Origin: a virus
Strand: one strand, 5' to 3'
Virus record (IMG/VR): IMGVR_UViG_3300027708_000033
Coordinates: 62,001-126,000 of that record
Length of the DNA: 64,000 nt
The notes beneath the pieces were generated by a model. That model searched no databases. It was not told where the DNA came from and worked only from the letters and a program-made list of their open reading frames with translations. The first letter of the stretch is position 1. Each line of letters opens with the position of its first letter. The position numbers were made by a program, and so were the translations under genes. Below are positions 30,088 to 44,357 of this stretch, piece after piece.

Positions 30088-30125
30088 CTATTTGTGGAAG
30101 ATTTTTATAAGATTTCGGTAACATT

Positions 30126-30344: not shown

Positions 30345-30353
30345 TGCATTTCC

Positions 30354-30393
30354 TCCAGAGGTTTGATAGAAAAATACTATCTCGCCTCTGGAG
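30354..30393 (-). promoter_or_regulatory. Hairpin sequestering the ribosome binding site of gene 30344
   Basis: Stem CCTCCAGAGG/CCTCTGGAGG (10 bp, perfect) encloses a second stem GATAG/CTATC with a U-rich loop. The GGAGG of the 3' arm is the ribosome binding site, 6 nt before the ATG. Confidence 0.72.
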
Positions 30394-30406
30394 GTTTTGT
30401 ATGCAA

Positions 30407-30667: not shown

Positions 30668-30680
30668 GTGAACTCCTTTT

Positions 30681-30739
30681 GTCGTTTGCCAGATTTTCCT
30701 GGTAATACTATTATAGCACATTGCTGAAGCAAAAGTACA
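30681..30739 (-). promoter_or_regulatory. Promoter and hairpin leader of gene 30667
   Basis: TGTACT (-35), 18-bp spacer with TTTGCTTCA, TATAAT (30715-30710). Hairpin CCAGG-AAAA-TCTGG, then the variant box AAACGACAAAAGGAG. Confidence 0.82.
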
Positions 30740-30775
30740 CATTTCCAAAAGATTTATGAAAAAGTTTCTGCGCCG

Positions 30776-30818
30776 CGTAAAGAAGAATGCCGCCAACTAC
30801 TTTCGCAGCTGACGGCAC
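30776..30818 (-). terminator. Terminator after the NlpC/P60 gene
   Basis: Stem TGCCGTCAGCT/AGTTGGCGGCA (imperfect), then TTCTTCTTT on the minus strand. Confidence 0.7.
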
Positions 30819-30828
30819 TCGACTTTGT

Positions 30829-31485
30829 CTACGGAAGTGACGGGTCCTGGTCGATAATCCGGTTGTATGTAACCGTGGCATTTCCGTTTTCCTGGGAAAC
30901 ATCCGCAACAGATTGAATGACGGTCAACATACCTTTTCTGTATGAATGAATCATCATCCCGTTGCCTAAATAGATTCCACTGTGGAACGAGTAATAACTC
31001 TTTCGGTAGTGAAACGCTACGATGTCTCCGGGTTCTGGATTTGCGGTTCGTGTTCCTGTGTGCGATTGCACCGTAGCTGAATGTTTCAGCGTGATACCTA
31101 ATTGCTGATACGTCCAGTACACAAGCCCAGAACAATCCCAACCCTGAGGACTAACACCGCTGTAAACATACCAAGTATGATTTGCAGTTTTCCTAAGGGT
31201 TTTGATTGTCTTCCGCATGTCCAATGTGTTTTGCACTCGTTTAGCCTGCGCAACCGCAAGTCTCTCCAGAAGCGTTTGCTTCCTGTGAGCTTCAGCTTCT
31301 AAGAAAGTCATCGGCTGGAAAGTTTTTCCCAGTTTGATTCCTTCGAAGTGCATTGGCTTTTCGATTGTAGTTGCAACTACCTTAACATTTTTAGGTGTTA
31401 CGGTATCCGCTCCTGCTGGCGTCTCTGGATAGTTTCCTCCAAAAACAACTACCGATACGAGCGCTGTTGTTATTAACCATTTCAT
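30829..31485 (-). CDS. Secreted NlpC/P60 peptidase
   Basis: 218 residues. Signal peptide MKWLITTALVSVVVFGG with a likely cut after PAGA. A helical segment (60-100) leads to an NlpC/P60 domain (about 104-218): catalytic C118 in WDCSGL, H168 in FHSGIYLG and a third polar residue at H180. Such enzymes cut D-Glu-diaminopimelate bonds in peptidoglycan. The signal peptide is unusual for a holin-dependent lysin and suggests export by the host Sec system. Alternatives: virion-associated or superinfection-related wall enzyme. Confidence 0.85.
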   Translation of the reverse strand: MKWLITTALVSVVVFGGNYPETPAGADTVTPKNVKVVATTIEKPMHFEGIKLGKTFQPMTFLEAEAHRKQTLLERLAVAQAKRVQNTLDMRKTIKTLRKTANHTWYVYSGVSPQGWDCSGLVYWTYQQLGITLKHSATVQSHTGTRTANPEPGDIVAFHYRKSYYSFHSGIYLGNGMMIHSYRKGMLTVIQSVADVSQENGNATVTYNRIIDQDPSLP

Positions 31486-31580
31486 TTAGCAGCCTACCTT
31501 TCCTTGCGTTAGTACTTAGCTGTTTATTGTCCGGTCTCCCTAATCCTGATTATCGACCTCAGGATTAGACTACTTTATCA
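31486..31580 (-). other. Intergenic hairpin
   Basis: A 9-bp inverted repeat TAATCCTGA/TCAGGATTA at 31541-31567 separates the 99-aa gene from the NlpC/P60 gene. No U tract and no promoter hexamers seen; it may be a processing or attenuation structure. Confidence 0.5.
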
Positions 31581-31880
31581 CTAAGCCGCGGTAGAAAGGC
31601 TCTTTAGGCCCTTTGCGATTGCTGCCATTAGGTCCGAAGCCTCTCGCGTGTTGCGAACCGAAACGAACTCACCGGTCTTGATGCTGAAGACTAAATAGTC
31701 TTTTGTTTCAGTTGTTCGAAGGACCAATAGGCCGTGACGCTTGCGGTAGTACGCTGGAACATAGCCCGCAGGAATTTCGATTCCTGGCGCTAGGCGTGGA
31801 ACTGTTTCAACTCTGGTGCGATTTTTTACTGGAACCTTTTTGATTTTAGCCGCAGGTTCAGTGGTTTTGATTTCAGTCAT
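31581..31880 (-). CDS. Unknown basic protein
   Basis: 99 residues with a Lys-rich N terminus (AAKIKKVPVKNRTRVE), then an AYYRKRHGLLVLRTTETKDYLVFSI beta region and a short C-terminal helix. It overlaps the upstream membrane gene by 8 nt. No family recognised; nucleic-acid binding is only suggested by charge. Confidence 0.7.
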   Translation of the reverse strand: MTEIKTTEPAAKIKKVPVKNRTRVETVPRLAPGIEIPAGYVPAYYRKRHGLLVLRTTETKDYLVFSIKTGEFVSVRNTREASDLMAAIAKGLKSLSTAA

Positions 31881-32103
31881 TTTGACTCCTTGTTGTTTGT
31901 TCTTCTTGTTTGATTAATTTGCCGCCCAGTGTGAGCAGCCAGATGGTGCAGATGATTACGAGCATCACTGCCCAAATCGTTAGGTAAGCTGCCCTACCAA
32001 TAAAGCCAAGAAAGCCTTCGCGATTTGCTAGTTCGGTCGCTGCGAACATTCCTTCCTTGGCTTTACGGTAGCCGCGTTCAAAAAGCGACTTGCGCTTAGT
32101 CAC
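31873..32103 (-). CDS. Small membrane protein
   Basis: 76 residues if translation starts at the GTG at 32103, which lies in GTGACTAA across the previous stop. The longer frame overlaps the upstream gene by 53 nt and is less likely. One strong transmembrane segment (TIWAVMLVIICTIWLLTLGG) follows a basic amphipathic N terminus. No family recognised. Confidence 0.65.
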   Translation of the reverse strand: MTKRKSLFERGYRKAKEGMFAATELANREGFLGFIGRAAYLTIWAVMLVIICTIWLLTLGGKLIKQEEQTTRSQND

Positions 32104-32323
32104 GCTTAGCACTGCGGCGTTCGATATAGCGTTCAATGTCTGGACCAAAAGTCCAGCCTAGAACCCATACCGTGCCGATGGTTGGAAGATTTTGTAGAAA
32201 GTCTACGAATCGTCCTTCTGCACCGAACGCAATCAGGATTATCCAGATAAACAGATAGCCTGCGTAAGAGAGCGGTACAGTGATGATGCTTACAAAGAAT
32301 CGTCTCAAAGTGTACTTGTCCAT
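32096..32323 (-). CDS. Small two-span membrane protein
   Basis: 75 residues, first gene behind the promoter at 32365. Hydrophobic segments at about 8-32 and 48-60, then a basic tail IERRSAKRD. Its last codons GACTAA contain the next start. No family recognised. Confidence 0.72.
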   Translation of the reverse strand: MDKYTLRRFFVSIITVPLSYAGYLFIWIILIAFGAEGRFVDFLQNLPTIGTVWVLGWTFGPDIERYIERRSAKRD

Positions 32324-32333
32324 ATTTCCTCTT

Positions 32334-32393
32334 TTCGTCGTTACTAGGTTTTCCTAGTAATTCAATTATACTTCATTCTGCTTCAGAAGTACA
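32334..32393 (-). promoter_or_regulatory. Promoter and hairpin leader of gene 32323
   Basis: TGTACT (32393-32388), 17-bp spacer, TATAAT (32370-32365). Hairpin TTACTAGG-AAAA-CCTAGTAA, then ACGACGAAAAGAGG. The spacer carries TGAAGCA, the reverse complement of the usual TGCTTCA. Confidence 0.86.
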
Positions 32394-32418
32394 TCGTTTT
32401 TTGAAACTTTTTGTAAGT

Positions 32419-32649
32419 TTAGTCGTTCTCGACTTCAATTACTTTTCCTGCCGCATCCTCGAGAACGTAGTATTCGGTGTCGATACCGCTGTTCTTCTCG
32501 AAGTACTCAGGGAGGTCTTCACCGTTGATGTCGCCTTCGGTGAGTTCCTTGAAGAGCCGCATGGCTTCTTCATCGGATGAGGCTTCGAATGAAGCCTTCC
32601 ACGATTCGACCACGTCGAACCTGAAGTTGTAGATTTTCTTTTCACTCAT
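32419..32649 (-). CDS. Unknown small acidic protein
   Basis: 76 residues: an N-terminal YNFRFDVVESWKASFEA strand-turn-strand and an acidic helix, ending VLEDAAGKVIEVEND. Two nt after the upstream gene. No family recognised. Confidence 0.7.
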   Translation of the reverse strand: MSEKKIYNFRFDVVESWKASFEASSDEEAMRLFKELTEGDINGEDLPEYFEKNSGIDTEYYVLEDAAGKVIEVEND

Positions 32650-32651
32650 GT

Positions 32652-32960
32652 CTACTCCTCGTCTTCTTCGTAGTCTTCGTTCTCGACTTCTTCGGTGGTT
32701 TCAGTGAATACACAAGAAGAGTACTTCTTGTTCAATCGCTGAACTTCTTCCCACATGTACTCTTCAAGTTCTTCCTGGTCGCTGAAGTAGTGACGCTCTT
32801 TCCAGTCGCTGCTTGAGATGACTCCCTTGAAGTTCATCGTGAAGTACCAATCGTAGAACTCGTCGATTTGACCTGATGCTTCCAGCTTCCAGTCGCCGAA
32901 GTCGATTGTCGCCGTGGTGATTGTGATGTTCTTCATCTTGTTGTTTTCTTTATCAGTCAT
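32652..32960 (-). CDS. Unknown acidic protein
   Basis: 102 residues, AAGGAG 6 nt before the ATG. Aromatic-rich centre (FYDWYFTMNF) and a very acidic end (EEVENEDYEEDEE). Operon leader with the 76-aa gene. No family recognised. Confidence 0.72.
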   Translation of the reverse strand: MTDKENNKMKNITITTATIDFGDWKLEASGQIDEFYDWYFTMNFKGVISSSDWKERHYFSDQEELEEYMWEEVQRLNKKYSSCVFTETTEEVENEDYEEDEE

Positions 32961-32975
32961 ACTGACTCCTTCATT

Positions 32976-33033
32976 TTGTCGTTTCTGGATTTCTCCATGG
33001 TTCTATTATACAGCGTACTGAAGCAAATGTACA
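32976..33033 (-). promoter_or_regulatory. Promoter and hairpin leader of gene 32960
   Basis: TGTACA (33033-33028), 17-bp spacer with TTTGCTTCA, TATAAT (33010-33005). Hairpin TGGAGAAATCCA, then the variant box AAACGACAAAATG. Confidence 0.88.
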
Positions 33034-33060
33034 CTCATTTTGATAACTTTTTGGAAAGAT

Positions 33061-33405
33061 TTAATTTATTTTTGACATTTCCGCATAAGTCTTTAACTGT
33101 TGAATCTGCACTTCACTGATTCCCCGCGTGTCTCCACTGGAGTCGATGCCTCCCGTAAATACAACTGGACCAACGATGAAGTCTGTACCTCCGCAATACT
33201 TCACGAAGATAGATGTTGCAGCCTGATTGAATGGAAGTTTGGTCATCTTGCCATCTTCATTCGTCCACATGATGAGGTCTGGTGCTAGTCTGATTGGTTC
33301 AATGTAACCTCCAACCGCAGTCTGCATGGTTTTTAGTTGGTTGTCAACGAAAGGTATTACTTGTACCGCACCTTCAGGTGACATGATTGCCGCGAACTGT
33401 GACAT
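33061..33405 (-). CDS. DUF3846-like protein
   Basis: 114 residues. MSPEGAVQVIPF, VGGYIEPIRLAPDLIMWTNEDGK and LPFNQAATSIF fit the DUF3846 pattern seen in phages and plasmids of actinobacteria. Function of the family is unknown. It is the last gene of a leftward run starting at 34354. Confidence 0.78.
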   Translation of the reverse strand: MSQFAAIMSPEGAVQVIPFVDNQLKTMQTAVGGYIEPIRLAPDLIMWTNEDGKMTKLPFNQAATSIFVKYCGGTDFIVGPVVFTGGIDSSGDTRGISEVQIQQLKTYAEMSKIN

Positions 33406-33415
33406 GGTTCTCTCC

Positions 33416-33766
33416 TTATTTCTTTTTCTTGTATTTGTTGCTGATGATTTCAGCAGCTTTTGGACGGTTCTCGTCTGAAGTTTCTTCTATCTCTACCCAG
33501 TCGCTGTCGTTCCAGCTAGAGGTTTCGATGATAACTAACCCATCTGCCATGCCGTAGTTTCCATCATCAGAGAAGTAATGGACGATTGGTTGTGTGAACA
33601 CGCGAGCTTCTTCAGTGTGCTCATCGATGGTGATTAGTTCCGCACCTTCTTCAGGTTCTACGAAGCCAGTTGCGATGAAGATTTCATCGGCACCGTTTTC
33701 TGCATCGCTAATGAAAGCCTCTGGACAGATTTCCTGGATTTTTGCTAGTAGTTCTTCTTTAGTCAT
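33416..33766 (-). CDS. Unknown acidic protein
   Basis: 116 residues from ATG 33766, where ATGACTAA overlaps the previous stop; AGAGGAAG lies upstream. Acidic throughout (pI clearly low) until a KKKK tail. No family recognised. Confidence 0.7.
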   Translation of the reverse strand: MTKEELLAKIQEICPEAFISDAENGADEIFIATGFVEPEEGAELITIDEHTEEARVFTQPIVHYFSDDGNYGMADGLVIIETSSWNDSDWVEIEETSDENRPKAAEIISNKYKKKK

Positions 33767-33992
33767 TTGATACTTCCTCTGCTGTATACTCGCCAATAAA
33801 CTTGACGACGTCTGTTGACGATAGGTTTTCTGGATAGTTGGTGAACTTAGACAGGGCGATGCTCCAATCGCCTGCTATGATGCCGCACGCGTGCTCAGCA
33901 GTTTCTGCTGACACCTGGTAGCGGTAGGTGATTTTTATCGGTGGATTTCCGTTCACCGAGATTTGCCGTGAGACCGCAAACTTTTTGCTCAC
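33759..33992 (-). CDS. Unknown small protein
   Basis: 77 residues from a GTG sharing one base with the previous TAG. Beta-rich N half (KITYRYQVSAETAEHA), helical C half. No family recognised. Middle of a four-gene operon with overlaps at both ends. Confidence 0.7.
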   Translation of the reverse strand: MSKKFAVSRQISVNGNPPIKITYRYQVSAETAEHACGIIAGDWSIALSKFTNYPENLSSTDVVKFIGEYTAEEVSND

Positions 33993-34354
33993 TAGTCCCA
34001 GCCTTTACAGCCGCAATAAGCGATGTCGAAAGCTCGGTGAGGTAGAGTTTGTGGGAAGGCCGGGTCTCCGCTTAGTTCCTTGTCGCAAGTTGAGCAAAGG
34101 CGCTTGCGCTCAGTTTCTGTTGTGACGCTTAGGTCGATGCTAGCCGCAAGCTCGTTGAACCTTTTGAGAGCCTCGTCATACTTTACGTAGGTCATCACAC
34201 AGATGTCGTTGTACTTGTAGTTTGGAGATTCTGACTGGATTCTCCATGCTGGTTGACCTTCGCGGATTTCGACTGAGCGAAGCGCTAGCGTCCATGGACC
34301 GTAAGGTGCGTTTGCATATGCTGGTGCAGTTAGTTCTATTTGTTCTAGACTCAT
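33992..34354 (-). CDS. Protein with C-terminal zinc-binding motif
   Basis: 120 residues, first gene behind the promoter at 34397. The N-terminal domain (GPWTLALRSVEIREGQPAWR) is of unknown fold. C-terminal cysteines CSTC and CGC may bind zinc. No family recognised. Confidence 0.72.
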   Translation of the reverse strand: MSLEQIELTAPAYANAPYGPWTLALRSVEIREGQPAWRIQSESPNYKYNDICVMTYVKYDEALKRFNELAASIDLSVTTETERKRLCSTCDKELSGDPAFPQTLPHRAFDIAYCGCKGWD

Positions 34355-34365
34355 TTGGTCTCCTA

Positions 34366-34425
34366 GTTGTCGTTTTGTCGTTTACTTCTTGGTTTTATTA
34401 TACAGCATAATGAAGCAAATGTACA
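34366..34425 (-). promoter_or_regulatory. Promoter and leader of gene 34354
   Basis: TGTACA (34425-34420), 17-bp spacer with TTTGCTTCA, TATAAT (34402-34397). The leader has a duplicated box AAACGACAAAACGAC and then TAGGAG. Confidence 0.87.
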
Positions 34426-34443
34426 CTTCATTTGAAACTTTAT

Positions 34444-34629
34444 TTATTTATTTTTTGGAGTGATGCGTTTGATTACCAGCTTGTGCTTTGCTGGATGGAC
34501 TTCGATGTCGATAACGTAGTCTGTAGCCTGGTTGTCGACTGTGAAGCTAGGTTGTGATTTCCGTCCAGCAATAAAGCCTAGCACTAAAGTGGCAATGCCT
34601 ACCACGAGTATGATTTCTTGATTAGTCAT
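34444..34629 (-). CDS. Small membrane-anchored protein
   Basis: 61 residues with one N-terminal transmembrane segment (IILVVGIATLVLGFIAG) and a soluble basic tail. The start shares a base with the previous stop. No family recognised. Confidence 0.7.
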   Translation of the reverse strand: MTNQEIILVVGIATLVLGFIAGRKSQPSFTVDNQATDYVIDIEVHPAKHKLVIKRITPKNK

Positions 34630-35027
34630 TATGAAGTCGCTCTCGCCTTCTCACGGATGAAGTCTGCTATCCTTGCCGCGGTGTCTGCCTGAACTACCAA
34701 AGTAGGTCTAGACATTGCTTCGGCGCAAGACTCGTTTTCACCCTTGCACTTGCATAGGAACGCAAATGGCGTGAACTGCGCAACGATTTCATCGGCTAAC
34801 TTAGATAGAGGACTTTCCTCTTCTTCGGCCTGCTCGTCTAGGTCCATGCAGCAAATAAGGCAGAGACCGTGCTCAAGCTCTTCCTCGCTGCAGTCTGTAG
34901 TGCCGCACCTTCTGCAAACACCTTCACAGTCGTTACACCAAGCGATTTCGCCTGGTTCGTTTTTGCTGAACTCAGCAGCTAGTTTTGTTTCTTCGCATCG
35001 CGAACATTGAATCTTGTTTTCGTCCAT
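34629..35027 (-). CDS. Multi-cysteine zinc-ribbon protein
   Basis: 132 residues from ATG 35027 (AAAGGA upstream). It carries CSRC, CNDC, CRRC and CLICC clusters in the first 65 residues, then a CKCKG segment and a helical end. At least two zinc ribbons are likely. Such proteins in phages often bind nucleic acids or host factors; no specific family recognised. Confidence 0.75.
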   Translation of the reverse strand: MDENKIQCSRCEETKLAAEFSKNEPGEIAWCNDCEGVCRRCGTTDCSEEELEHGLCLICCMDLDEQAEEEESPLSKLADEIVAQFTPFAFLCKCKGENESCAEAMSRPTLVVQADTAARIADFIREKARATS

Positions 35028-35035
35028 TGCGGTTC

Positions 35036-35100
35036 CTTTCGTCATTTAGATTTTCCATCTGTAATCATTATACCACAGATGTGTGATGCTTGCTTCATTT
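35036..35100 (-). promoter_or_regulatory. Promoter and hairpin leader of gene 35027
   Basis: TATAAT at 35072-35067. TGAAGCAAGCA lies upstream but no clear TGTACA. Hairpin AGAT..ATCT, then AAATGACGAAAGGA. Confidence 0.7.
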
Positions 35101-35133
35101 TTTGATAACTTTATGGAAAGATTTCCAGCGAGT

Positions 35134-36903
35134 TTAGCGGCGGGAAGCCGAGGCCTTTGATAGCACCTTGACTGCCGCCATTCCAATCTTCTGAGCCGCG
35201 TCAACCGTGTCCTTGCCAACATGCACAACTTCACCATTGCCGTTTACCCAACGGTTTGCTTGCACGACGTCATCGTACGTCAGCCAAAGAACTCCCACGC
35301 CGGCTTTGTAGCAACGCTCGACCCACTTGGTGGCGGCTTGAGTTTCCTCGTGAGTGTAGTGTCCATCGCTTACGACGACAAGCATGCGAGCGCCGTCACC
35401 GTGCAAGAAGTTCATCGCACCGTCTAGTGCCTTGAACGCCTTGTCGAACTTCTCAGTTCCATCAGGAGCCGTGTAAACCTGAACCTCAGGAAGACTTTGA
35501 CCTGGCTTCAAAGTCGGGAAGACATCGTTGCCATAGTAGACCATTGCCGCACGTCCTTGGACGCGCTTGGTGGCCTCAGAGAGAACCCACGCAGTCACAG
35601 CCATTGGTTCCATCGCATCGCCCATTGAACCTGAGATGTCAACCATTACGCCGACTTTGAGCTGCGGGTTGTCGGTGTGCTTGCGCTGCGTACGACGCCA
35701 TGGCTCAGTCTGAGTCAGCAAGCCTTTAGACTTGAGTGCCGCACCTTGAACAAGCGCGCGAGTGCGTAGACGTCCTGGAGGAGTTATCGACTGAATCTCT
35801 GTCTGCGAACGCTCGCGGTACTTAGCCTTGTCGAATAGTTGACCTAGCTTCACGGCTGCCGCACGCTCTTGAGAAGTCGGCTGACGTCTAGACGCTAGTG
35901 TCGACTTAGTCTTGCTACCTGCTTCAGCTTCAGCATTCTCGGTGAAGATTTTCTCCGCGATACCTTTGTGAGCGTGTTCCTCACCTGAATCTGCGCTGCG
36001 GCCTTTTGCAATCTTGACCCACTGCTCACTGATTTGCTGTTCAGCAAGTTCTCCAGCTGCAGCAATCTCTGTGATGCCTGCCGCATCAGCTAGAGCCTCA
36101 AGGATTTCCTGAATCTGCTGCTCGATGCTTTCTTGAGTCTCTTCGCCCTTTTCAGTTTGCGCAGTACGAATGGCTTCAACCCAACGGCGCGCAACGTCAT
36201 ACATCGGAGTGATGTTGTCGTGGTCGTCGTGCATCTGCATTTCGTTCCATAGACCGCGTAGAGTCTTTAGCAAGTCTGCACCTAGTAGAGTCTCAAGAAG
36301 CTGAGGCACGTCACCTAGGTCGCTCTCTTCGAGAACACCAGCATCAACACGAGCTAGCGTTAGTCCAGCGAGTCGTGCGCCAGCGTGAATCGTTGAGATT
36401 TTGCTTAGTCCTTCTTCGCTTAGGTCGCCAAGCACAATTTCAAGTGCACAAGAACGGAGGAACTCACGGTTGTTAGGAGTCGACTGCACACCGAATCCTT
36501 CGATGCGTGATTCTTCTAGAAGCTGAAGAGCCTCAAACTCTGAACTGCTTAGTGAGCCGTGCGCTGCTTCCATCGACCAGCGAGAGTAGCGTGCGTGGCA
36601 AGCTTCGTGGAAGATGGCGCCAGATGCACGAGGCCATTCGAATTGAGTGTCGCGTTCGCGAAGGTCGCCAACTACTTCAGCCTCAACGCCTTTTCCGAAC
36701 GCAGCCTCAGTATTGACTTCGATTTCGCTTAGCGCAGGGTTGTAAGCTGCAGGTGCTGGTCCACCAGCTCCTGGACCAAGGTATACAACTAGGTCGCCTC
36801 GGTATGCCCACTGATTTACAAGCTCGCCAATCTGTGCGCCTGTCTTCAACCATGCTGGCTGAGTCATCTCTGCTCGTGTGCCATTTGTTTTGAAATGTCC
36901 CAT
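35134..36903 (-). CDS. vWA-domain protein with HExxH motif (CobT-like)
   Basis: 589 residues from ATG 36903 (AAGGAG upstream). HEACH at 99-103 in GAIFHEACHARYSRW is a zinc-metallopeptidase-like motif. A helical charged middle is followed by a vWA domain: MIDAS DISGSMG near residue 420, MVYYGND and VVVSDGHYT. This is the arrangement of phage CobT-like/VWA-MoxR-partner proteins. The MoxR-type ATPase is the next gene upstream in the same direction. Inference: an ATP-driven remodelling machine for metal insertion or protein assembly or disassembly. Own promoter at 36938. Confidence 0.85.
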   Translation of the reverse strand: MGHFKTNGTRAEMTQPAWLKTGAQIGELVNQWAYRGDLVVYLGPGAGGPAPAAYNPALSEIEVNTEAAFGKGVEAEVVGDLRERDTQFEWPRASGAIFHEACHARYSRWSMEAAHGSLSSSEFEALQLLEESRIEGFGVQSTPNNREFLRSCALEIVLGDLSEEGLSKISTIHAGARLAGLTLARVDAGVLEESDLGDVPQLLETLLGADLLKTLRGLWNEMQMHDDHDNITPMYDVARRWVEAIRTAQTEKGEETQESIEQQIQEILEALADAAGITEIAAAGELAEQQISEQWVKIAKGRSADSGEEHAHKGIAEKIFTENAEAEAGSKTKSTLASRRQPTSQERAAAVKLGQLFDKAKYRERSQTEIQSITPPGRLRTRALVQGAALKSKGLLTQTEPWRRTQRKHTDNPQLKVGVMVDISGSMGDAMEPMAVTAWVLSEATKRVQGRAAMVYYGNDVFPTLKPGQSLPEVQVYTAPDGTEKFDKAFKALDGAMNFLHGDGARMLVVVSDGHYTHEETQAATKWVERCYKAGVGVLWLTYDDVVQANRWVNGNGEVVHVGKDTVDAAQKIGMAAVKVLSKASASRR

Positions 36904-36917
36904 GTGAATCTCCTTTT

Positions 36918-36965
36918 TGTCGTTTGTCTCTAATTCCATTATACACAGTTTTGAAGTAAAGTACA
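36918..36965 (-). promoter_or_regulatory. Promoter and leader of the vWA gene
   Basis: TGTACT (-35), 16-bp spacer with TTACTTCA, TATAAT (36943-36938). Leader box AAACGACAAAAAGGAG. Confidence 0.82.
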
Positions 36966-36993
36966 CTTCATTTGTAAAAAACTTTTAAGTTGT

Positions 36994-37099
36994 GAGAGGG
37001 AGACCGGAGTGGTCTCAACAGTCTCCCTCTCGTGCAGGATGCAAACGACGAAGAAAGCATCCTGCCACCGAGACGGAAACGACGAAGAAAGCGTCTCGG
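36994..37099. other. Tandem hairpins carrying the leader box in their loops
   Basis: Three hairpins in about 105 bp between the ATPase gene and the vWA gene. A: GAGAGGGAGAC (36994-37004) with GTCTCCCTCTC (37021-37031), plus a competing GAGACC/GGTCTC pairing. B: GCAGGATGC/GCATCCTGC (37034-37065), perfect, loop AAACGACGAAGAAA. C: CCGAGACG/CGTCTCGG (37068-37099), loop with the identical AAACGACGAAGAAA at 37077-37090. Read leftward, the loops present the complement (TTTCTTCGTCGTTT) of the leader box found at more than twenty genes. Confidence 0.8.
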
Positions 37100-37107
37100 A
37101 GTTTCTA

Positions 37108-38091
37108 TTAGATTTTAGCTGGACGAATCTCTTCACCGTAGACTCGAGTGAACGTATCGGCAACAACCGGACGGTCCATCTCTGGAGCCTGAGCTAGAAG
37201 GTTCTGAACTGCCCACTTAGTTCCAAAAGTTGTCGCCAACTCCTTGAACGCAAGCAGCTCACGCATTTGCGGAGCCCATGAGACTTCACCAGTCTGCTGC
37301 TTCTTCGCAAGGTTCTGTGCCGCACCAACCATGTTGGTAGGTACACCAAGTTTCCTAGCTAGGTTCCAGTCAGTGGTCATCTCACTGTGAATCTTGAATC
37401 GAGACAACAACGCCTCACTCAAGTTGACTCCTGGAGCATTCGGGTTAGTCGCTGCGACCACGAAGAATCCATCCTTCGCCTTGACTGTGCCACGCTCTGG
37501 ATTTGCAGTTACCGCAAGTTCACGGCGACCATCCATTAGACCGTACACAACTGTCAAGACCTTCGGGTCGATGATACCAATCTCGTCGATGAGTAGCGGC
37601 TTGCCTTCTTCCGCAGCTCTGATGAGAGGTCCATCAACCCAGCTGAATCCACCGTCAGTGTTTTGTACGTAGCCACCAACGAAGTCAGAAACTTCAGTGT
37701 CGCCTGTACCTAGCACTGTGTAGAGGTCGTTGCCGAACGCTGCCTCGAAGACCGCAGTCTTACCAGTTCCTGGAGCTCCGTACAGAAGTACAAACTGTCC
37801 TGCGACATGAGCCTTGCGAACAACTTCAACATCGTTGTGCTCTCCCCACTTTCGTGCAAAGTACATGTCGCCGTTAGGACGAGTGTACTTCGAGAGTCCT
37901 TCGAGTGTCTCTGCTTCAACCACAGTTACGAATGCCTTCTTGCTAGCTGACTTTTTGGTTAGCATGCCAGTCATCGACATGTAAGCCTCTATCGCTTTCG
38001 CTGAGTCTTCGTGTTGTGTCTGTACAACTGTCGCGTAGATGGCTTCGCTTAGACCATCGTACAACTTGTTTAGATTTTCTACTGATTCCAT
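37108..38091 (-). CDS. MoxR/CobS-type AAA+ ATPase
   Basis: 327 residues. Walker A GAPGTGKT (105-112), Walker B PLLIDE (165-170) followed by IGIIDPK, sensor-like VAATNPN and an ASEALLSRF-type arginine region. This is the MoxR branch of AAA+ proteins, which act with vWA partners. The partner lies directly downstream. The leader ATAACGACGAAACGAGGACATT keeps the conserved box even though the upstream gene is close, so it may be separately controlled at the RNA level. Confidence 0.88.
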   Translation of the reverse strand: MESVENLNKLYDGLSEAIYATVVQTQHEDSAKAIEAYMSMTGMLTKKSASKKAFVTVVEAETLEGLSKYTRPNGDMYFARKWGEHNDVEVVRKAHVAGQFVLLYGAPGTGKTAVFEAAFGNDLYTVLGTGDTEVSDFVGGYVQNTDGGFSWVDGPLIRAAEEGKPLLIDEIGIIDPKVLTVVYGLMDGRRELAVTANPERGTVKAKDGFFVVAATNPNAPGVNLSEALLSRFKIHSEMTTDWNLARKLGVPTNMVGAAQNLAKKQQTGEVSWAPQMRELLAFKELATTFGTKWAVQNLLAQAPEMDRPVVADTFTRVYGEEIRPAKI

Positions 38092-38115
38092 AATGTCCTC
38101 GTTTCGTCGTTATTC

Positions 38116-38583
38116 TTAGATTAGTGCGTCGGCGAAGCCGAGCACCTTTCGGGTTCTGGTGACTCGTGCAAGAATCTTGTACGGAGTCTTGTGTGCGCAG
38201 ATGTCATCCAAGTCATCGACACCAATCTCTACTACGATTGGCGCCTTGCGAAGCTTGTAGCCGTGGTCGATTATCTGAGTGAACAGCTTCTCGCCAAAGA
38301 CTAGTCGCTCTTTTGCCAACTTGATGGCATCTGATTTGTAGTTGATGATTTCAAAGTTGCCATCAACATCGAGCTTTGGCTTGTCGTACGTTGAGTACGC
38401 ATTCCAAGTTGCTCGTGGCTTCGATGGAGTCAGTCTGCGTCTGTACAGTGTCAATGCCACATGTGAACCGCTAGGTGACTTCATGTCTGGTGTTAGTAGC
38501 AGCTGCAACACGCTTGCATTGCCTGGCTGCTCAAGCTCTAAGTAAAGAGCCTTTCCGTAAACCTTGGTCGTCGTATCTTCCAT
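38116..38583 (-). CDS. Unknown protein, ATPase operon leader
   Basis: 155 residues. Beta-rich N half (ALYLELEQPGNASVLQLLL, HVALTLYRRRL) and helical C half. No convincing family; a divergent WGR-like fold is conceivable from the pattern but not supported. It precedes the MoxR-type ATPase by 24 nt and has its own promoter. Confidence 0.72.
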   Translation of the reverse strand: MEDTTTKVYGKALYLELEQPGNASVLQLLLTPDMKSPSGSHVALTLYRRRLTPSKPRATWNAYSTYDKPKLDVDGNFEIINYKSDAIKLAKERLVFGEKLFTQIIDHGYKLRKAPIVVEIGVDDLDDICAHKTPYKILARVTRTRKVLGFADALI

Positions 38584-38593
38584 GGTATTTCCC

Positions 38594-38659
38594 TTCGTCG
38601 TTTTGTCTGAGGCTTTTGCCTCATGTAACCATTATACCTTGTAACTTTTCAAAAGTACA
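38594..38659 (-). promoter_or_regulatory. Promoter and hairpin leader of gene 38583
   Basis: TGTACT (-35), 17-bp spacer, TATAAT (38636-38631). Strong hairpin TGAGGC-AAAA-GCCTCA, then AAACGACGAAGGGA. Confidence 0.87.
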
Positions 38660-38677
38660 ATTCATTTTGAAACTTTT

Positions 38678-38723
38678 TGGTGGTGTCCTAGACACCTGAC
38701 TGAGGATTGGAACTCAGTCAGGC
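38678..38723. other. Two adjacent hairpins after gene 38744
   Basis: GGTGTC/GACACC (38680-38694) and CCTGACTGAG/CTCAGTCAGG (38695-38723), both perfect, without a U tract. They lie between the stop at 38744 and the next promoter. They are probably 3'-end structures. Confidence 0.55.
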
Positions 38724-38743
38724 GCCTAGAAGCTGGAAGTCCT

Positions 38744-39085
38744 CTAGCCGAGGACCTTGAACCAGTGAGTCGCCTTTTCCCAATAAGACTTCTCGAAGAT
38801 TTCCATCGAGAGAGACTTTAGGATGTCGCGGTCGATGCCGGTAGACTTTCCGTTCATGCGCTGGAAAACCTTCTTGCCGTCGACGATGCCGAACTTGGCT
38901 TCGCCCATCAGAGCCTCGGCTTCAGCTTTCGCTTCTGCTTCCATCTCGTCTGCAAGCTTCTTCAGCTCACGAGCGTCTGCCAACTTCTTTGCAACTTCCA
39001 AAGCGTTGGTGTTAGTGAGGTCTACAACTTCACTGGTGGTGGTAATCTCTGTTACCTTGGTTTCTGTCTTGATGATAGTTGCCAT
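38744..39085 (-). CDS. Unknown helical protein
   Basis: About 113 residues from ATG 39085; an ATG 21 nt earlier is possible. A long charged helix, ALEVAKKLADARELKKLADE, suggests a coiled coil. The C terminus is basic and aromatic (YWEKATHWFKVLG). This composition resembles small phage chaperone-like or nuclease-accessory proteins, but no family is recognised. Confidence 0.68.
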   Translation of the reverse strand: MATIIKTETKVTEITTTSEVVDLTNTNALEVAKKLADARELKKLADEMEAEAKAEAEALMGEAKFGIVDGKKVFQRMNGKSTGIDRDILKSLSMEIFEKSYWEKATHWFKVLG

Positions 39086-39120
39086 ACGCAACCACCGTCC
39101 TTTCATCTTTTGAAACTTTC

Positions 39121-39185
39121 GTTTCGTCGTTTATCAAACGTTTGCTTGATAGTTCTATTATACCATGTTTTTGGAGCATTTGTTG
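39121..39185 (-). promoter_or_regulatory. Promoter and hairpin leader of gene 39085
   Basis: TATAAT (39162-39157) in the second spacer class (AATGCTCCAAAAACATGG). Hairpin TATCAA...TTGATA, then AAACGACGAAACG. Confidence 0.78.
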
Positions 39186-39235
39186 CATTTTCGCAAACTT
39201 TTTTGAAAAAGTTTATAACGAATTGGTAACGACAT

Positions 39236-39478
39236 TTATGCCGCGTGTTTGCCCTTTTGCATCATCTTCACTGCTAGCAAGATGAACAAACCGCTCACTA
39301 GCATGATGGCACCAATTAGCGCGTAGCCATTTGCTATGAATCGAGTCTGGTCCATGTCGTCAGCCATGTAGATTCGTTCGTTGTAAATACCGTTCATGCG
39401 CCAGCAAGCTGCCGCAAGAAAGATGTGAGCTGTTGCTAGGTAGTTCAGCGCGTAGCGCGCGTATCGTTTTGTGCTCAT
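39236..39478 (-). CDS. Small membrane protein
   Basis: 80 residues with two hydrophobic segments (about 10-28 and 48-70) and a basic end. No family recognised. Starts at the base where the upstream stop ends. Confidence 0.7.
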   Translation of the reverse strand: MSTKRYARYALNYLATAHIFLAAACWRMNGIYNERIYMADDMDQTRFIANGYALIGAIMLVSGLFILLAVKMMQKGKHAA

Positions 39479-39792
39479 TAGTTGGTCTCCTCTCGAGACT
39501 TCGATATTGGTTTTGTTACTGTTGTGTCAAAGAAAGTGTTCGCGACTTTCGTGAACTCTTCCGGTGAAGCTTGGAAGAAACCCTCCCAATTTGTTTCGCC
39601 GCACTTCACGAGCGCTGCGGCTCGTAGCATCGCGGTCGAAAGATTTTCGTATGTCTCGGTCCAAACATTAATGATGTAGTCTGTCCAAGTCAAGTCGAAC
39701 TTGCCGTCTTCTCGCTTGAGTATCGCGAACTCGACTTCTTGCTTGAAGTCGATTCGCAATACTACATGCTTTTCGTCTATGCGCTCTAACAT
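39478..39792 (-). CDS. Unknown protein
   Basis: 104 residues. VVLRIDFKQEVEFAILKREDGKF is a beta-hairpin-like start, followed by helices with NLSTAMLRAAALVKCG and a basic C terminus. No family recognised. Middle gene of an operon of three. Confidence 0.7.
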   Translation of the reverse strand: MLERIDEKHVVLRIDFKQEVEFAILKREDGKFDLTWTDYIINVWTETYENLSTAMLRAAALVKCGETNWEGFFQASPEEFTKVANTFFDTTVTKPISKSREETN

Positions 39793-39795
39793 GGT

Positions 39796-40023
39796 CTATT
39801 CGTCTCCTGCGACGATAGCGCCAGAGTCATCGTAGACTTTTGCAAGTTCGATGGCATTGTAATCGCATGCTTCATGCGCATACTCACGCAACTTTTCAAT
39901 CATCACTTCAACGGTGATTTCGTCGAGCGGGATTCCAATGTACTCGTTTAGTTCTTCGAGTGTGAGTGTGTACTCTAGTTTTAGAGTTACTGATTCTGGT
40001 AACTTGTTTGTGTTATCTGCCAT
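39796..40023 (-). CDS. Unknown small acidic protein
   Basis: 75 residues from ATG 40023. KLEYTLTLEELNEYIGIPLDEITVE suggests a small alpha/beta fold. First gene of the operon behind the promoter at 40073. Confidence 0.7.
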   Translation of the reverse strand: MADNTNKLPESVTLKLEYTLTLEELNEYIGIPLDEITVEVMIEKLREYAHEACDYNAIELAKVYDDSGAIVAGDE

Positions 40024-40041
40024 AAGCAATCACGTCCTTCA

Positions 40042-40105
40042 TTTCGTCGTTTACAACTTTTGTTGTATTTCCATTATACCTTGTTTTTGGAGCATTTGAT
40101 ACAGT
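40042..40105 (-). promoter_or_regulatory. Promoter and hairpin leader of gene 40023
   Basis: TATAAT (40078-40073), spacer class AATGCTCCAAAAACAAGG. Hairpin ACAAC-AAAA-GTTGT, then AAACGACGAAATGAAGGA. Confidence 0.82.
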
Positions 40106-40147
40106 TTCTAGCAAATTCTTTATAACGAATCTATAACGACATTTCTG

Positions 40148-40396
40148 CTAATCTAGCTGAGTTGTCGATAGCTCGAGAGCAAACTTTTTGAACTCGTCGC
40201 CTTCAAGCGGATTCGCTGCCAAGATGGTGAGTGTGTAAAGTGTCGCCGCAAGCTCTTTTGGACTTGACTCTTTGATGATGTCTCGCATCAATGCAGAAAG
40301 CTGCTGCGCATTTACCAACTCGTCTTCTGTGGAGTTGGAACGAACTGAGGTGACTAACGCCACTGCAGCTCGTGCTCCTTTACTGAACTTATGCAC
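40148..40396 (-). CDS. Unknown helical protein
   Basis: About 82 residues from the GTG at 40396, which overlaps the previous stop by 8 nt (GTGCATAA). A longer frame exists but overlaps more. Helical with LAATLYTLTILAANPLEGDEF. No family recognised. Confidence 0.62.
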   Translation of the reverse strand: MHKFSKGARAAVALVTSVRSNSTEDELVNAQQLSALMRDIIKESSPKELAATLYTLTILAANPLEGDEFKKFALELSTTQLD

Positions 40397-40712
40397 AATC
40401 GACCTGAATCGCTGTGTGATACAAGAAGCAAGTCGAGCAAGCAACTCCGTAATCGTTCGGCTTCTTGGTGTTGTTGCGTCGGTTACCGAACATCACTGAG
40501 ACGTCACCATCTAGTCCTACGAGACTTAGCTTCGTGCAGATTGAGTAGTAGCTGCGACCAAGCAACTGAGCAATCTCAAGGTTCGAGACGTTCGACTTCT
40601 TCAAGTCGCGCATGTCATTGATGTCGTTTACTGACCAGTATTCTCCTGCTGCGATTGCTGTTAGCAATGTGATGGTCTGGTACTTTTCGTTGTATTCTTG
40701 GTTAGTCTTCAT
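40389..40712 (-). CDS. Helix-turn-helix protein
   Basis: 107 residues from ATG 40712. An HTH-like stretch SNLEIAQLLGRSYYSICTKL (about 42-61) is followed by a short CSTC...C tail. I recognise this type as common in actinophages. Likely a small DNA-binding regulator. Confidence 0.75.
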   Translation of the reverse strand: MKTNQEYNEKYQTITLLTAIAAGEYWSVNDINDMRDLKKSNVSNLEIAQLLGRSYYSICTKLSLVGLDGDVSVMFGNRRNNTKKPNDYGVACSTCFLYHTAIQVDCA

Positions 40713-40723
40713 AGTGAAGTCCT

Positions 40724-40795
40724 TTCGTCGTTTTCGCAACTTGTTGTTTGCTGCTTGATTCCATTATACCTTGTTTTTGAAGCGTTTGTCGCCAA
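40724..40795 (-). promoter_or_regulatory. Promoter and leader of gene 40712
   Basis: TATAAT (40768-40763), spacer with CGCTTCAAAAACAAGG. Hairpin GCAGCAAAC...GTTGC region, then AAAACGACGAAAGGA. Confidence 0.8.
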
Positions 40796-40829
40796 TTCGC
40801 GAAATTATTTATAACGAATTGGTAACAGC

Positions 40830-41063
40830 TTATTCGTCTAGAATCTTGGTGATTTTGAATCCAACTTCTTCGAGCGACTCGACTCGCGCTCTGTCGAACT
40901 GAGCTTGGTCGTCAAAGTAAAAGTAGACTCGAGCATCGAAGTCAAAGTCGTCATCGAACTTTGTCTTGCCGTCGCCAATCGCGACAGTGACTTCGTCCAC
41001 GTTGTCTTTGTAGTTGTAGATGGACACGATGCTGACATCGACGTACTTTAGGTTGTCACTCAT
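40830..41063 (-). CDS. Unknown acidic protein
   Basis: 77 residues, strongly Asp-rich centre (DDDFDFDARVYFYFDD). It overlaps the zinc-ribbon gene by 8 nt. No family recognised. Confidence 0.68.
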   Translation of the reverse strand: MSDNLKYVDVSIVSIYNYKDNVDEVTVAIGDGKTKFDDDFDFDARVYFYFDDQAQFDRARVESLEEVGFKITKILDE

Positions 41064-41310
41064 GTGTTGCTCCTAAAGTTTTCAAGCTAAAGTTTTCAAG
41101 CGCCGCGTCAATCTTCGCAATGTCTTCCAGCATCTGCGCGCGCTGCGCTTCGATGATTGGTAGTAGAGCTTCGCGAGTTCCGCAAGCCGAACAGATTTCA
41201 GTCTTGTTGTCCTTGCGTGAGATAGCGCCCATGTACGCGCCTGGAGTTTCGTTGTTCGGTATGAATCCATCGCATGATGGACAAATTGGTGCTGGTTTGT
41301 TTTCACTCAT
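41056..41310 (-). CDS. Zinc-ribbon protein of the IPNNETPGAY type
   Basis: 84 residues. CPSCDGFIPNNETPGAYMGA and SRKDNKTEICSACGTREAL match a widespread small actinophage zinc-ribbon family of unknown function. Two CxxC pairs give one zinc site. C-terminal helix. Confidence 0.82.
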   Translation of the reverse strand: MSENKPAPICPSCDGFIPNNETPGAYMGAISRKDNKTEICSACGTREALLPIIEAQRAQMLEDIAKIDAALENFSLKTLGATHE

Positions 41311-41492
41311 TTGCTAGCCTCCTTCAAAGCCTTTGAAACTGTGTTGTACATTTCGCCGAACATTTGGTCAACGAACTTTTCGTCGCCTTCCCAATTGTCG
41401 GAATCCATCGCTTCGTAAATTGCATCTTGCAAAAGTGAAAGTTGCTTTTCACTAAGCTCTAGCGTGATTTTGATTTTTGGTTTGTCGCTCAT
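41307..41492 (-). CDS. Unknown small protein
   Basis: 61 residues from ATG 41492 (AAGGAG upstream). KIKITLELSEKQLSLLQDAIYEA is a strand followed by a helix, a ribbon-helix-like start without a clear DNA-binding sequence. Coupled to the next gene by a 4-nt overlap. Confidence 0.7.
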   Translation of the reverse strand: MSDKPKIKITLELSEKQLSLLQDAIYEAMDSDNWEGDEKFVDQMFGEMYNTVSKALKEASK

Positions 41493-41526
41493 GATTTCTC
41501 CTTCTCGAGAGTGGGTTGCACTTCGC

Positions 41527-41901
41527 TTACGCGAAGGCAACCAACTCAGCCTCAAGATTTACGGTTTCGATTTTTGCCCAATAGTCGATTCCAATATCGC
41601 CGTTGACGATAACGAATCCACCTGAACATGGACACATTGAACATCCTGCATAGCGGTTCCAGCTTATCTTCTCGAACTTGATTCCCTGCTCGATAAGTTT
41701 CGCCGCGATGAGTGGTCGCAATGTGTTGTAGTCGCGTGAGCGACGGTTCGCTAAGTGAGTCCAGACGTCTTCACCGAAGTCAACGAAGACTCGTGATGGC
41801 GCGTATGGAGAATCGCTTGCTTGTTGCTTGTATTCGTACTTGCGTGGGTACTTGCTTGCTTCTAGTTTTGCAACTACCATTTTTGTGATTGTAGTTTCCA
41901 T
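41527..41901 (-). CDS. Unknown protein with CSMCPC motif
   Basis: 124 residues from ATG 41901. A tyrosine-rich basic start, RSRDYNTLRPLIAAKLIEQGI helix and a CSMCPCSGGF loop in the C half. I recognise the general pattern from actinophages but no function. Own promoter. Confidence 0.75.
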   Translation of the reverse strand: METTITKMVVAKLEASKYPRKYEYKQQASDSPYAPSRVFVDFGEDVWTHLANRRSRDYNTLRPLIAAKLIEQGIKFEKISWNRYAGCSMCPCSGGFVIVNGDIGIDYWAKIETVNLEAELVAFA

Positions 41902-41919
41902 AAGGAACCTTCTTTCATT

Positions 41920-41978
41920 TCGTCGTTTGCAGCTTTTTGCTGTAATTCCATTATACCATGTATTGAAGCAAAATGTAA
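41920..41978 (-). promoter_or_regulatory. Promoter and hairpin leader of gene 41901
   Basis: TTACAT (-35), 17-bp spacer with TTTGCTTCA, TATAAT (41955-41950). Hairpin CAGC-AAAAA-GCTG, then AAACGACGAAATGAAAG. Confidence 0.86.
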
Positions 41979-42068
41979 CCATTTTGCAAAATTATTTATA
42001 ACGAATTGGTAAGAGATTTTTTTGTTTTTGGTGGGCATTTTTACGAGTGCCCAGCTCGGTGCTCATCG

Positions 42069-42311
42069 TTAGACGACGAACGCTAGTTTGTAACCCTTGT
42101 CGAGCTTTGAGTGAATCTTGTCGAGTGCTTCTGCGACTGCCGCGTTCTCGCTTGCGAAGAATTTCGTGCTAGATGCTCGAACTGACTTCTCTGCCATTCC
42201 CCATGAGGTGAACAACATGTTGTCCTTTACGACAACTTCGTAGACCTTCTTCTTGCCAGCATCGCCGCGTGCGCCGTCTGACTCTTTTAGTAAACACCAT
42301 TTCTTTTCCAT
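42069..42311 (-). CDS. WGR-domain-like small protein, copy B
   Basis: 80 residues from ATG 42311. Same pattern as the rightward gene at 23640: CLLKESDG, KKKVYEVVV, FTSWGMAEKSVRASS, NAA and a C-terminal DKGYKLAFVV. The two are clear paralogues on opposite strands, each behind a copy of the same leader module. WGR-type modules bind nucleic acid ends in larger proteins; here the domain is alone. Confidence 0.78.
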   Translation of the reverse strand: MEKKWCLLKESDGARGDAGKKKVYEVVVKDNMLFTSWGMAEKSVRASSTKFFASENAAVAEALDKIHSKLDKGYKLAFVV

Positions 42312-42323
42312 AGCATCCCTGCT

Positions 42324-42395
42324 TTCGTTTCGTCGTTTGTATTTATTGTTTGTTGCTAATTCCATTATACCATGTTTTGAAGCAAAAGTGCGCAT
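42324..42395 (-). promoter_or_regulatory. Promoter and leader of gene 42311
   Basis: GCGCACT region as weak -35, spacer with TTTGCTTCA, TATAAT (42369-42364). Leader with AGCAACAAACAATA, then AAACGACGAAACGAAAG. Confidence 0.82.
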
Positions 42396-42412
42396 TTGCG
42401 CAAACTTTTTTA

Positions 42413-42715
42413 TTACATTTTGGTAACGAGATTTTGACGCTTCCAACCGATGTTCTCGCATCGATACACGCGACCATCGATTTCGATTTCGTCACCAACG
42501 CTTAGTGCGGTGTGAGTGCGAAGCGGTGAGAGCTTCGGCTCGATGATGTTCCACATGAATCCTTCGTAGACGTTAGTGTCACGGAAGATGATGTCTAGAA
42601 TCACTAGGTCCATGATTCCATTTGGATTTTTGATTTCGTACGAGAATGAAACGCTTGTGTGTTGGCGTTCACCACGTGGCTCGAAAGCCTTCCAACTGAT
42701 TTTGATTTCTGACAT
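42413..42715 (-). CDS. Unknown beta-rich protein
   Basis: 100 residues. Beta-rich (VSFSYEIKNPNG, DEIEIDGRVYRCENIGWKR). The end looks like a small OB/SH3-type strand pattern. No family recognised. Monocistronic with own promoter. Confidence 0.72.
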   Translation of the reverse strand: MSEIKISWKAFEPRGERQHTSVSFSYEIKNPNGIMDLVILDIIFRDTNVYEGFMWNIIEPKLSPLRTHTALSVGDEIEIDGRVYRCENIGWKRQNLVTKM

Positions 42716-42724
42716 ATGATGTCC

Positions 42725-42785
42725 CTTCGTCGTTTATTGTTTGTTGCTAATTCCATTATACACTGCGCCAGTGACATTTGCTGCC
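42725..42785 (-). promoter_or_regulatory. Promoter and leader of gene 42715
   Basis: TATAAT (42760-42755) with an AATGTCAC-type spacer instead of TTTGCTTCA. Leader AGCAACAAACAATA, then AAACGACGAAGGGA. Confidence 0.8.
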
Positions 42786-42801
42786 ATTTGGCGCAAATTC
42801 T

Positions 42802-43128
42802 TTATAACGGAATGGTAACAGTATATGCATCTATCCACGCAGTAGAAACGTTTTCCCAAGCGCGGTGGTCACGTCCACCAATGTGCCACGCGTAAAGCTC
42901 GTCGTCCTTTGGAGCTCCATGCGTGTATCGCTTGTAGTCGTAGATAGTCGCAACGGTTTTATCTGCAAACTCGATAATCCATCGAGTCGTGATTTTGCCG
43001 TCGATGCAATCGGTTGGATGTGGTTCTCCAAATAGCTCGACTAGCTGCTCGCGTGTCGACTCGAGATATCCTCTGAGCCCAGTGTCATCTGCTTTGCCTG
43101 ATTCTTGTTTGAGTAATTTAAATTTCAT
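42802..43128 (-). CDS. Conserved actinophage protein (LRGYLES/FGEP/WHIGG type)
   Basis: 108 residues. LRGYLESTREQLVELFGEP, TTRWIIEFADKTVATIYDYK and YAWHIGGRDHRA match a frequent small actinophage family of unknown function. Monocistronic with its own promoter. Confidence 0.82.
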   Translation of the reverse strand: MKFKLLKQESGKADDTGLRGYLESTREQLVELFGEPHPTDCIDGKITTRWIIEFADKTVATIYDYKRYTHGAPKDDELYAWHIGGRDHRAWENVSTAWIDAYTVTIPL

Positions 43129-43141
43129 GTCGTTCTCCTTG

Positions 43142-43200
43142 TTCGTCGTTTTTAATTTTTGTTGCTGATTCCATTATACCATGTGCTTGTGACATTCGTC
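43142..43200 (-). promoter_or_regulatory. Promoter and leader of gene 43128
   Basis: TATAAT (43178-43173), spacer class AATGTCAC. Leader with AGCAACAAAAATTA, then AAACGACGAACAAGGAG. Confidence 0.8.
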
Positions 43201-43203
43201 GCA

Positions 43204-43548
43204 TTATTTAAGAATCCAATGCGGAAGACTTTTGTCGAAAATTCTGCCAAGCGTTTTCATCGTGAATATGTTCACCATACCGATGACACGATAAGTTCCC
43301 AAGCGACCGTGCTTCTCGCTTCCAATTTCAACTAGTTTGCCAAACGCAAAAGTCGAACTTGGAGTTTGCGTCGTCGTGATAACGCGATAACCTTTTTGGC
43401 GCGTGTTATCGACGTAACGCTCGACGATGATGCATGTGTGCATGTCTCGCGTCCACGATTTAGCGTGAGCCGGAGCACCGGGGTTCATGCGAACCCCAGT
43501 CTCCTCAATTAGCTCGTAGTCGAAGATGCTCGCGTTCAAATTAGTCAA
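43204..43548 (-). CDS. Unknown beta-rich protein
   Basis: About 114 residues if started at TTG 43548, within TTGACTAA across the previous stop; ATG 43491 (about 95 residues) is the alternative. Beta-rich, with TFAFGKLVEIGSEKHGRLGTYRVIGM resembling a small barrel. No family recognised. Confidence 0.62.
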   Translation of the reverse strand: MTNLNASIFDYELIEETGVRMNPGAPAHAKSWTRDMHTCIIVERYVDNTRQKGYRVITTTQTPSSTFAFGKLVEIGSEKHGRLGTYRVIGMVNIFTMKTLGRIFDKSLPHWILK

Positions 43549-43921: not shown

Positions 43922-43938
43922 AATGACTCCTTTTCATT

Positions 43939-44320: not shown

Positions 44321-44357
44321 GTTCTAATCCTATCGCTTTGTCGTTTGAAAATTGTTA

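Follow-up and report, generated by a model that had tools for sequence, protein, structure and literature searches.

The DNA between a MoxR-type AAA ATPase gene and its vWA (CoxE/CobT-like) partner gene holds strong inverted repeats, and the question is what they do in a phage. They lie in the window, the 64,000-nt stretch analysed here, which runs from base 62001 to base 126000 of a virus record 127,237 bp long. The cultured phage records contained no near match to this phage. The closest counterpart of its MoxR protein is that of Actinomycetia phage DSL-LC01 (65%), followed by those of Microbacterium and Gordonia phages, so the phage is very probably an actinophage.

Tandem hairpins downstream of the MoxR gene

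Three inverted repeats follow the MoxR stop codon on the gene (-) strand, H1 and H2 in tandem and then a terminator-like H3. Read leftward, the order is MoxR end (37108), H1, H2, H3, and the vWA promoter and leader (Table 1). On the gene strand the loops of H1 and H2 have the 14-nt sequence UUUCUUCGUCGUUU in common while their stems differ, which confirms what the first-pass annotation had described, and the 127-kb record has exactly two copies of the 14-mer AAACGACGAAGAAA, both within these loops. Allowing up to 3 mismatches, AAACGACGAAGAAA had 28 matches in the window against 10.3 expected (maximum of 23 in 100 shuffles). The minus-strand RNA of the hairpin region folds far better than shuffled sequences (z -5.4), and the plus-strand RNA behaves similarly (z -5.0). 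A mobile or tandem-repeat origin of H1 and H2 was rejected, as the stems are unrelated and the loop is conserved.

No U-run follows H1 or H2, as one would directly after the GC stem of an intrinsic terminator. A T-run lies about 12 nt past H3, which was not called by a simple terminator scan. Because relatives, distant ones included, have a GC-rich hairpin at the same position after MoxR, H3 is best read from the sequence as an ordinary, positionally conserved MoxR terminator rather than a switch; the competing internal pairing, which had suggested a switch or terminator, does not make it an obvious switch. Rfam at gathering thresholds returned for the window only a tRNA match, with no homology to c4 or another family. 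A single tRNA-Thr (TGT) is located at 63429-63502 (-).

Table 1. Hairpins, genes and leader boxes of the MoxR/vWA locus and its surroundings (window positions, unless a contig is given)
Feature	Position	Strand	Description
H1	37068..37099	(-)	8-bp stem CCGAGACG/CGTCTCGG; (-) loop CUUUCUUCGUCGUUUC; anti-leader core 37090-37077; letters on +: CCGAGACG / GAAACGACGAAGAAAG / CGTCTCGG
H2	37034..37065	(-)	9-bp stem GCAGGATGC/GCATCCTGC; loop UUUCUUCGUCGUUU (37056-37043); letters on +: GCAGGATGC / AAACGACGAAGAAA / GCATCCTGC
H3	36994..37031	(-)	GAGAGGGAGACTG...CGGTCTCCCTCTC then ACAACTTAAAAGTTTTTT; presumed MoxR transcript terminator; labelled GAGAGGGAGAC... in leftward reading
MoxR-type AAA ATPase gene	37108..38091	(-)	H1-H3 in its 3'UTR; Pfam AAA_5, 2.8e-20
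vWA (CoxE/CobT-like) partner gene	35134..36903	(-)	own promoter; VWA_CoxE, 2.6e-4, below the curated cut-off
MoxR leader box	38103..38112	(-)	TAACGACGAA; 9-nt match AACGACGAA to own 3'UTR loop
Box of gene upstream of MoxR	38594..38603	(-)	AAACGACGAA; at the start of the presumed transcription unit
vWA leader box	36916..36925	(-)	AAACGACAAA; just downstream of TATAAT (36943-36938)
15 exact boxes	30029..44346	(-)	5' ends 44346 (no clear promoter), 43947, 43151, 42735, 42338, 41928, 40733, 40052, 39132, 38603, 36925, 34383, 32984, 30687, 30038
Four boxes	22909..24624	(+)	AAACGACGAA at 22909, 23614, 24145, 24615
Single 11-bp hairpin, complementary loop	L107:10145-10186		43-kb high-GC viral contig 3300037458_000852, in which 20 leaders consist of TATAAT + AACGACGAARGGACA

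Complementarity of the loops to a leader box

The loop of H1 and H2 is the complement of a box, AAACGAC[AG]AA (AAACGACRAA), that is present in about 20 leaders of the window phage. Outside the hairpins, the window contains 19 exact copies, 14 of the G form and 5 of the A form, and one-letter variants, such as TAACGACGAA before MoxR, come in addition. Nearly all copies sit between a TATAAT-type -10 element and the Shine-Dalgarno (SD) site with its start codon, usually 5' of the SD; elsewhere in the 127-kb genome, copies are scattered and have no leader context. The loop pairs with the box over 10 nt in the G form and 7 nt in the A form, so that the five exact boxes reading AAACGACAAA offer only 7 contiguous pairs. 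The mean loop-leader duplex energy is -12.8, compared to -8.8 ± 1.1 for shuffled loops, of which 0/200 were as good. The loop also holds the complement of GAAA and is not a perfect anti-SD, because the SD sequences of the leaders vary at the place that it faces.

An unbiased scan of 203 strong hairpins of the genome placed H1 and H2 at ranks 1 and 2 by the number of leaders matched (14 each; next 5), with a reversed-loop null that reached 12 in this genome and is not clean there; as a guess, the loop behind this value is the repeated TTTGCTTCA promoter element. In most of the other box-bearing phages, too, the hairpin with the anti-box loop heads the ranking, the exceptions being G015, G016 and G020, and the top-ranked hairpin of DSL-LC01 is its other anti-leader hairpin.

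Other features recur in these leaders. The sequence TTTGCTTCA is repeated near the -35 of many leader promoters of the window, upstream of TATAAT. Between the transcription start region and the box, most window leaders have a short 5' stem-loop; its loop is of the AAA type, and its stem sequence varies between genes (for example at 43947, 41928, 40052, 38603 and 30038, all (-)). Small HTH-like proteins that resemble each other, both with box leaders, are encoded at 40389-40721 (-) of the window and at 9718-9996 (-) of L107, in phages that are otherwise divergent.

Conservation of the loop and its covariation with leaders

At the third codon positions of MoxR, the relatives L012 and L037 are 96% and 73% identical to the window, and the 79-nt block from the stop codon to H2 shows 0 and 2 differences, respectively, with more change in the segments that follow. 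H1 is unchanged in both; H2 of L037 has two changes adjoining the loop and an intact anti-box core, CUUCGUCGUUU. Tandem hairpins were found only in close relatives when the tandem anti-box pattern was searched across viral contigs, the other matches being repeats or chance, and such tandem hairpins are missing after MoxR in those distant MoxR relatives that make no use of the box. The related cultured Gordonia and Microbacterium MoxR phages Pumpernickel, Cece, Forza, Phendrix, GMA2 and Sixama carry no anti-leader hairpin. Loss of the hairpins in phages that keep the leaders had been named as a sign against the element; the close relatives and distant box-bearing phages that we examined keep a hairpin.

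The same loop was also found on other stems. Viral contigs were scanned for the loop with G or C on its flanks, which gave hairpins on quite different stems in L128, L141, L142, L163, L178, L181, L182 and L184, and all of these contigs except L184 have ACGACGAAAGGA boxes on the hairpin strand and none on the opposite strand. The loop UUUCUUCGUCGUUU is carried on other stems by nine other contigs or genomes (G013-G020 and DSL-LC01), at other gene positions and on the leader strand: 13-22 nt past the stop codon of a gene of about 90 aa in G013-G019, at the MoxR terminator position in G020, and after yet another gene in DSL-LC01. The stem pairs of this recurring hairpin show compensatory types at all eight positions. 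Candidates in G012 and G022 were dropped as weak or outside gene 3'UTRs. The window itself has a homolog of the ~90-aa 'YFAEDGNYG' gene that hosts the hairpin in G013-G019, at 33416-33796 (-), where no such hairpin is present.

In the divergent 43-kb high-GC phage G006, 20 box leaders lie on one strand and 0 on the other, and one 11-bp hairpin has a loop, UGUCCCUUUCGUC, that fits the phage's own leader form, GACGAARGGACA; shuffled loops paired as well in 0/200 cases. The two hairpins of this kind in DSL-LC01 (OQ999401) are at about 30150-30205 and 41343-41376. The second anti-leader hairpin of this phage is located after vWA (L118:30157), with a stem of about 13 bp and a loop bipartitely complementary to its own leader, at GGACAAGTAAAC and AAAGGACAA.

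In the wider MoxR/vWA family, a hairpin just past the vWA stop codon exhibits a loop complementary to the vWA leader of the same phage. Examples are CAACGAAAGGACGAA with UUCGUCCUUUCGUUG (15 nt) and, in many lineages, TGACGGAAGGA with UCCUUCCGUCA; further matches are CAAAGGACAAACAA (14 nt), GGGAAGCAA (9), GAAAAGGGG (9) and CAAAGGGG (8). The longest own-leader match has a mean of 8.82 nt over 49 lineages, compared to 5.75 ± 0.25 nt when leaders are swapped (permutations as high, 0/3000), and reaches at least 8 nt in 35 lineages against 8.5 expected (maximum 18). In the 36 lineages below 70% identity, the corresponding values are 8.42 and 5.47 ± 0.28 nt (again 0/3000), with at least 8 nt shared in 23/36 against 4.9 expected. 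The own-leader advantage persists when the SD core is masked, when only the sequence 5' of the SD is used and when duplex energy is compared (0/2000 each); L354 of the 36-lineage set, which has a non-start codon, was dropped from these tests, leaving 35. The hairpin starts 3-14 nt past the stop codon in 55 of the 59 cases with at least 8 antisense nt shared with the leader, and all targets include or adjoin a purine-rich SD sequence.

About a third of the vWA lineages have no 8-nt match. Complementarity to the own leader is not general to 3' hairpins, own and swapped leaders being about equal genome-wide in nearly all genomes, so one or two loci per genome account for the effect; within genomes, the best own-leader match is often that of MoxR or vWA. 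The complemented motif stands at the head of several leaders of the examined locus in many phages, the loop being its sole inverted copy, and in others it is found at the vWA leader only. Because the loop covaries with the leader, RNA-RNA pairing between the two is strongly supported by these comparisons. The suggestion that a leftward transcript would display the leader complement and pair is in this way well supported, by the gene strand, by a loop conserved as stems and locations change, and by the covariation.

Proposed action, rival explanations and known systems

We consider it probable that H1 and H2 are anti-leader hairpins of the MoxR 3'UTR that shut off, in trans, about 20 leaders of presumably early genes and exert feedback on their own operon. 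In the MoxR transcript that we infer, each hairpin would present its 14-nt loop to AAACGAC(G/A)AA and the adjoining SD region of these leaders, MoxR's included, with 7-10 contiguous bases paired and a wobble extension into the SD. Since the pairing covers or abuts the SD, as for icaR (PMC3868564), exclusion of the 30S subunit is the most likely way in which translation would be blocked, and the duplex may also be exposed to RNase III. The MoxR mRNA, or a small RNA cut from its 3' end, would then serve as a delayed shut-off of the early regulon and as feedback on its own operon. The 5' arm of a hairpin that lies 3-14 nt from the stop codon would be hidden under terminating ribosomes, and hairpin availability could thus be coupled to translation of the upstream gene. 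Because the window-lineage loop fits about 20 leaders, we propose that regulon-wide action may have grown out of operon feedback. More tentatively, and at somewhat less than even odds, 3'UTR anti-leader hairpins would form a widespread phage class co-evolving with leaders, which in the window lineage has become a regulon-wide switch of about 20 early genes.

A narrower explanation is feedback in cis only, in which the loop in the 3'UTR and the leader of one and the same transcript pair with each other and so autoregulate the MoxR/vWA operon, the shared box having another cause, such as a common type of ribosome binding site. This would account for the many relatives whose vWA 3' hairpin matches its own leader only, as in G011, where the match is 15 nt and the motif occurs once per locus, for G020, whose box is the MoxR leader, and for the bipartite vWA hairpin of DSL-LC01; in view of such relatives, 'master regulator', as the element had been called, is too strong a name. 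We nevertheless hold a cis-only action to be rather unlikely, as the motif heads several to 20 leaders, with one inverted copy, in the window, G006, DSL-LC01, L300, L331 and others, and as the gene that hosts the hairpin in G014, G015 and G018 has no box in its own leader. That all targets contain or border an SD would also be expected if the loops imitated the 3' end of 16S rRNA and bound any SD, the leader match reflecting the shared SD only. This explanation is improbable, given that the own-leader advantage survives SD masking and that the window loop fits a box upstream of the SD.

The conserved anti-leader loop could also be incidental, or hitch-hiking on plain terminators or 3'-end stabilisers. 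Some vWA hairpins just past stop codons are indeed terminator-like, and the G020 hairpin is at the MoxR terminator position, but the loop is conserved while stems change and covaries with the leader, and we give this explanation little credence. Lower still stands a sense decoy, in which a rightward transcript would titrate a leader-binding protein, as had been offered as an alternative. The plus strand folds too, but the genes flanking H1-H3 are all leftward, no rightward promoter was found, and in every lineage the gene-strand copy is the anti-leader one: at least 8 nt are shared with the own leader in antisense by 59/82 family loops and in sense by 0/82. It is no more credible that the box serves as a site in DNA, either an operator or a promoter-proximal protein site, with the inverted copies as further DNA sites. 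The boxes do lie just downstream of -10 elements, but at a variable distance from them, the MoxR box has no promoter immediately before it, and the inverted copy is in a hairpin loop 3' of a gene, on a stem that covaries.

Among known systems, the 3'UTR of Staphylococcus aureus icaR carries a motif, UCCCCUG, that pairs with the SD region of its leader, blocks initiation and creates an RNase III substrate (PMC3868564). The likeness is a 3'UTR complementary to the SD or leader of its own mRNA, here over 9 nt for MoxR and up to 15 nt in relatives, with 0/3000 permutations. Unlike icaR, the present elements belong to phages and are compact hairpins right past the stop codon; they covary across dozens of lineages, and the loop of the window lineage fits a box common to about 20 leaders. 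The c4 antisense RNA of phages P1 and P7, with complementary sequences likely in loops, acts at a ribosome binding site (PMC12197685). It likewise sets antisense loops against a phage ribosome binding region, the likeness here being one of complementarity only, but it targets one mRNA (ant) in immunity, whereas the hairpins described here face a regulon-wide box or the operon's own leader; the window hairpins showed no sequence relation to c4. By analogy, the element would work like the icaR 3'UTR-SD pairing and loop-borne antisense RNAs such as c4. In T4, the translational repressor RegA competes at the translation initiation region of about 30 mRNAs and so shuts them off (PMC3014915); RegA is a protein, whereas the candidate repressor here is an RNA. 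With no Rfam match and a motif that differs from the start-associated sequence (SAS) of actinophages, we assigned the element to none of these families.

RNAIII of S. aureus is a host regulator whose C-rich hairpin loops pair with the SD regions of several mRNAs. The loop-SD pairing proposed for the window hairpins would be alike, the comparison being one of descriptions. A literature search, with subscription journals mostly outside its scope, returned no description of such phage anti-leader hairpins, and the data point to a hitherto undescribed means by which a phage would control the synthesis of its own proteins. If this is true, RNA does in phages what the RegA protein does in T4, the pairing of a 3'UTR with a 5'UTR has evolved repeatedly as a device and is not a single S. 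aureus example, and the loop sequence by itself would predict the regulon.

Catalogues of repeated start-associated motifs in actinophages go back to 2011, and the papers on them give their role as unknown; the SAS of cluster K mycobacteriophages and cluster EF Microbacterium phages is a conserved motif at many non-structural gene starts (PMC3203893, PMC7302621). Like SAS and ESAS, the box is one gene-oriented motif repeated before many gene starts, but those are 13-bp sequences at start codons, GGGATAGGAGCCC (K) or GGGAAAGGACCCC (EF), to which AAACGAC[AG]AA is unrelated. A single inverted copy in a hairpin loop just past a stop codon provides a testable partner for one start-associated motif. 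In AnnaSerena, a cluster EF phage that has SAS, an inverted hairpin loop was predicted blind, and the prediction failed, the loop being absent in this cluster. At the K1 locus, no inverted SAS hairpin loop was found in Pixie, Unicorn, MarkPhew, Shandong1, SirPhilip or KiSi; outside K1, the cluster K phages sampled gave at most partial loop matches. An inverted SAS core in K1 was noted without explanation in 2011 (PMC3203893), and in the K1 phages Anaya, CrimD and Amelie this core, CCTCCTATCC, is in the loop of a conserved hairpin. The region concerned in Mycobacterium phage Anaya (L218), at about 59690-60066, is conserved, structured and intergenic, with a promoter-like start.
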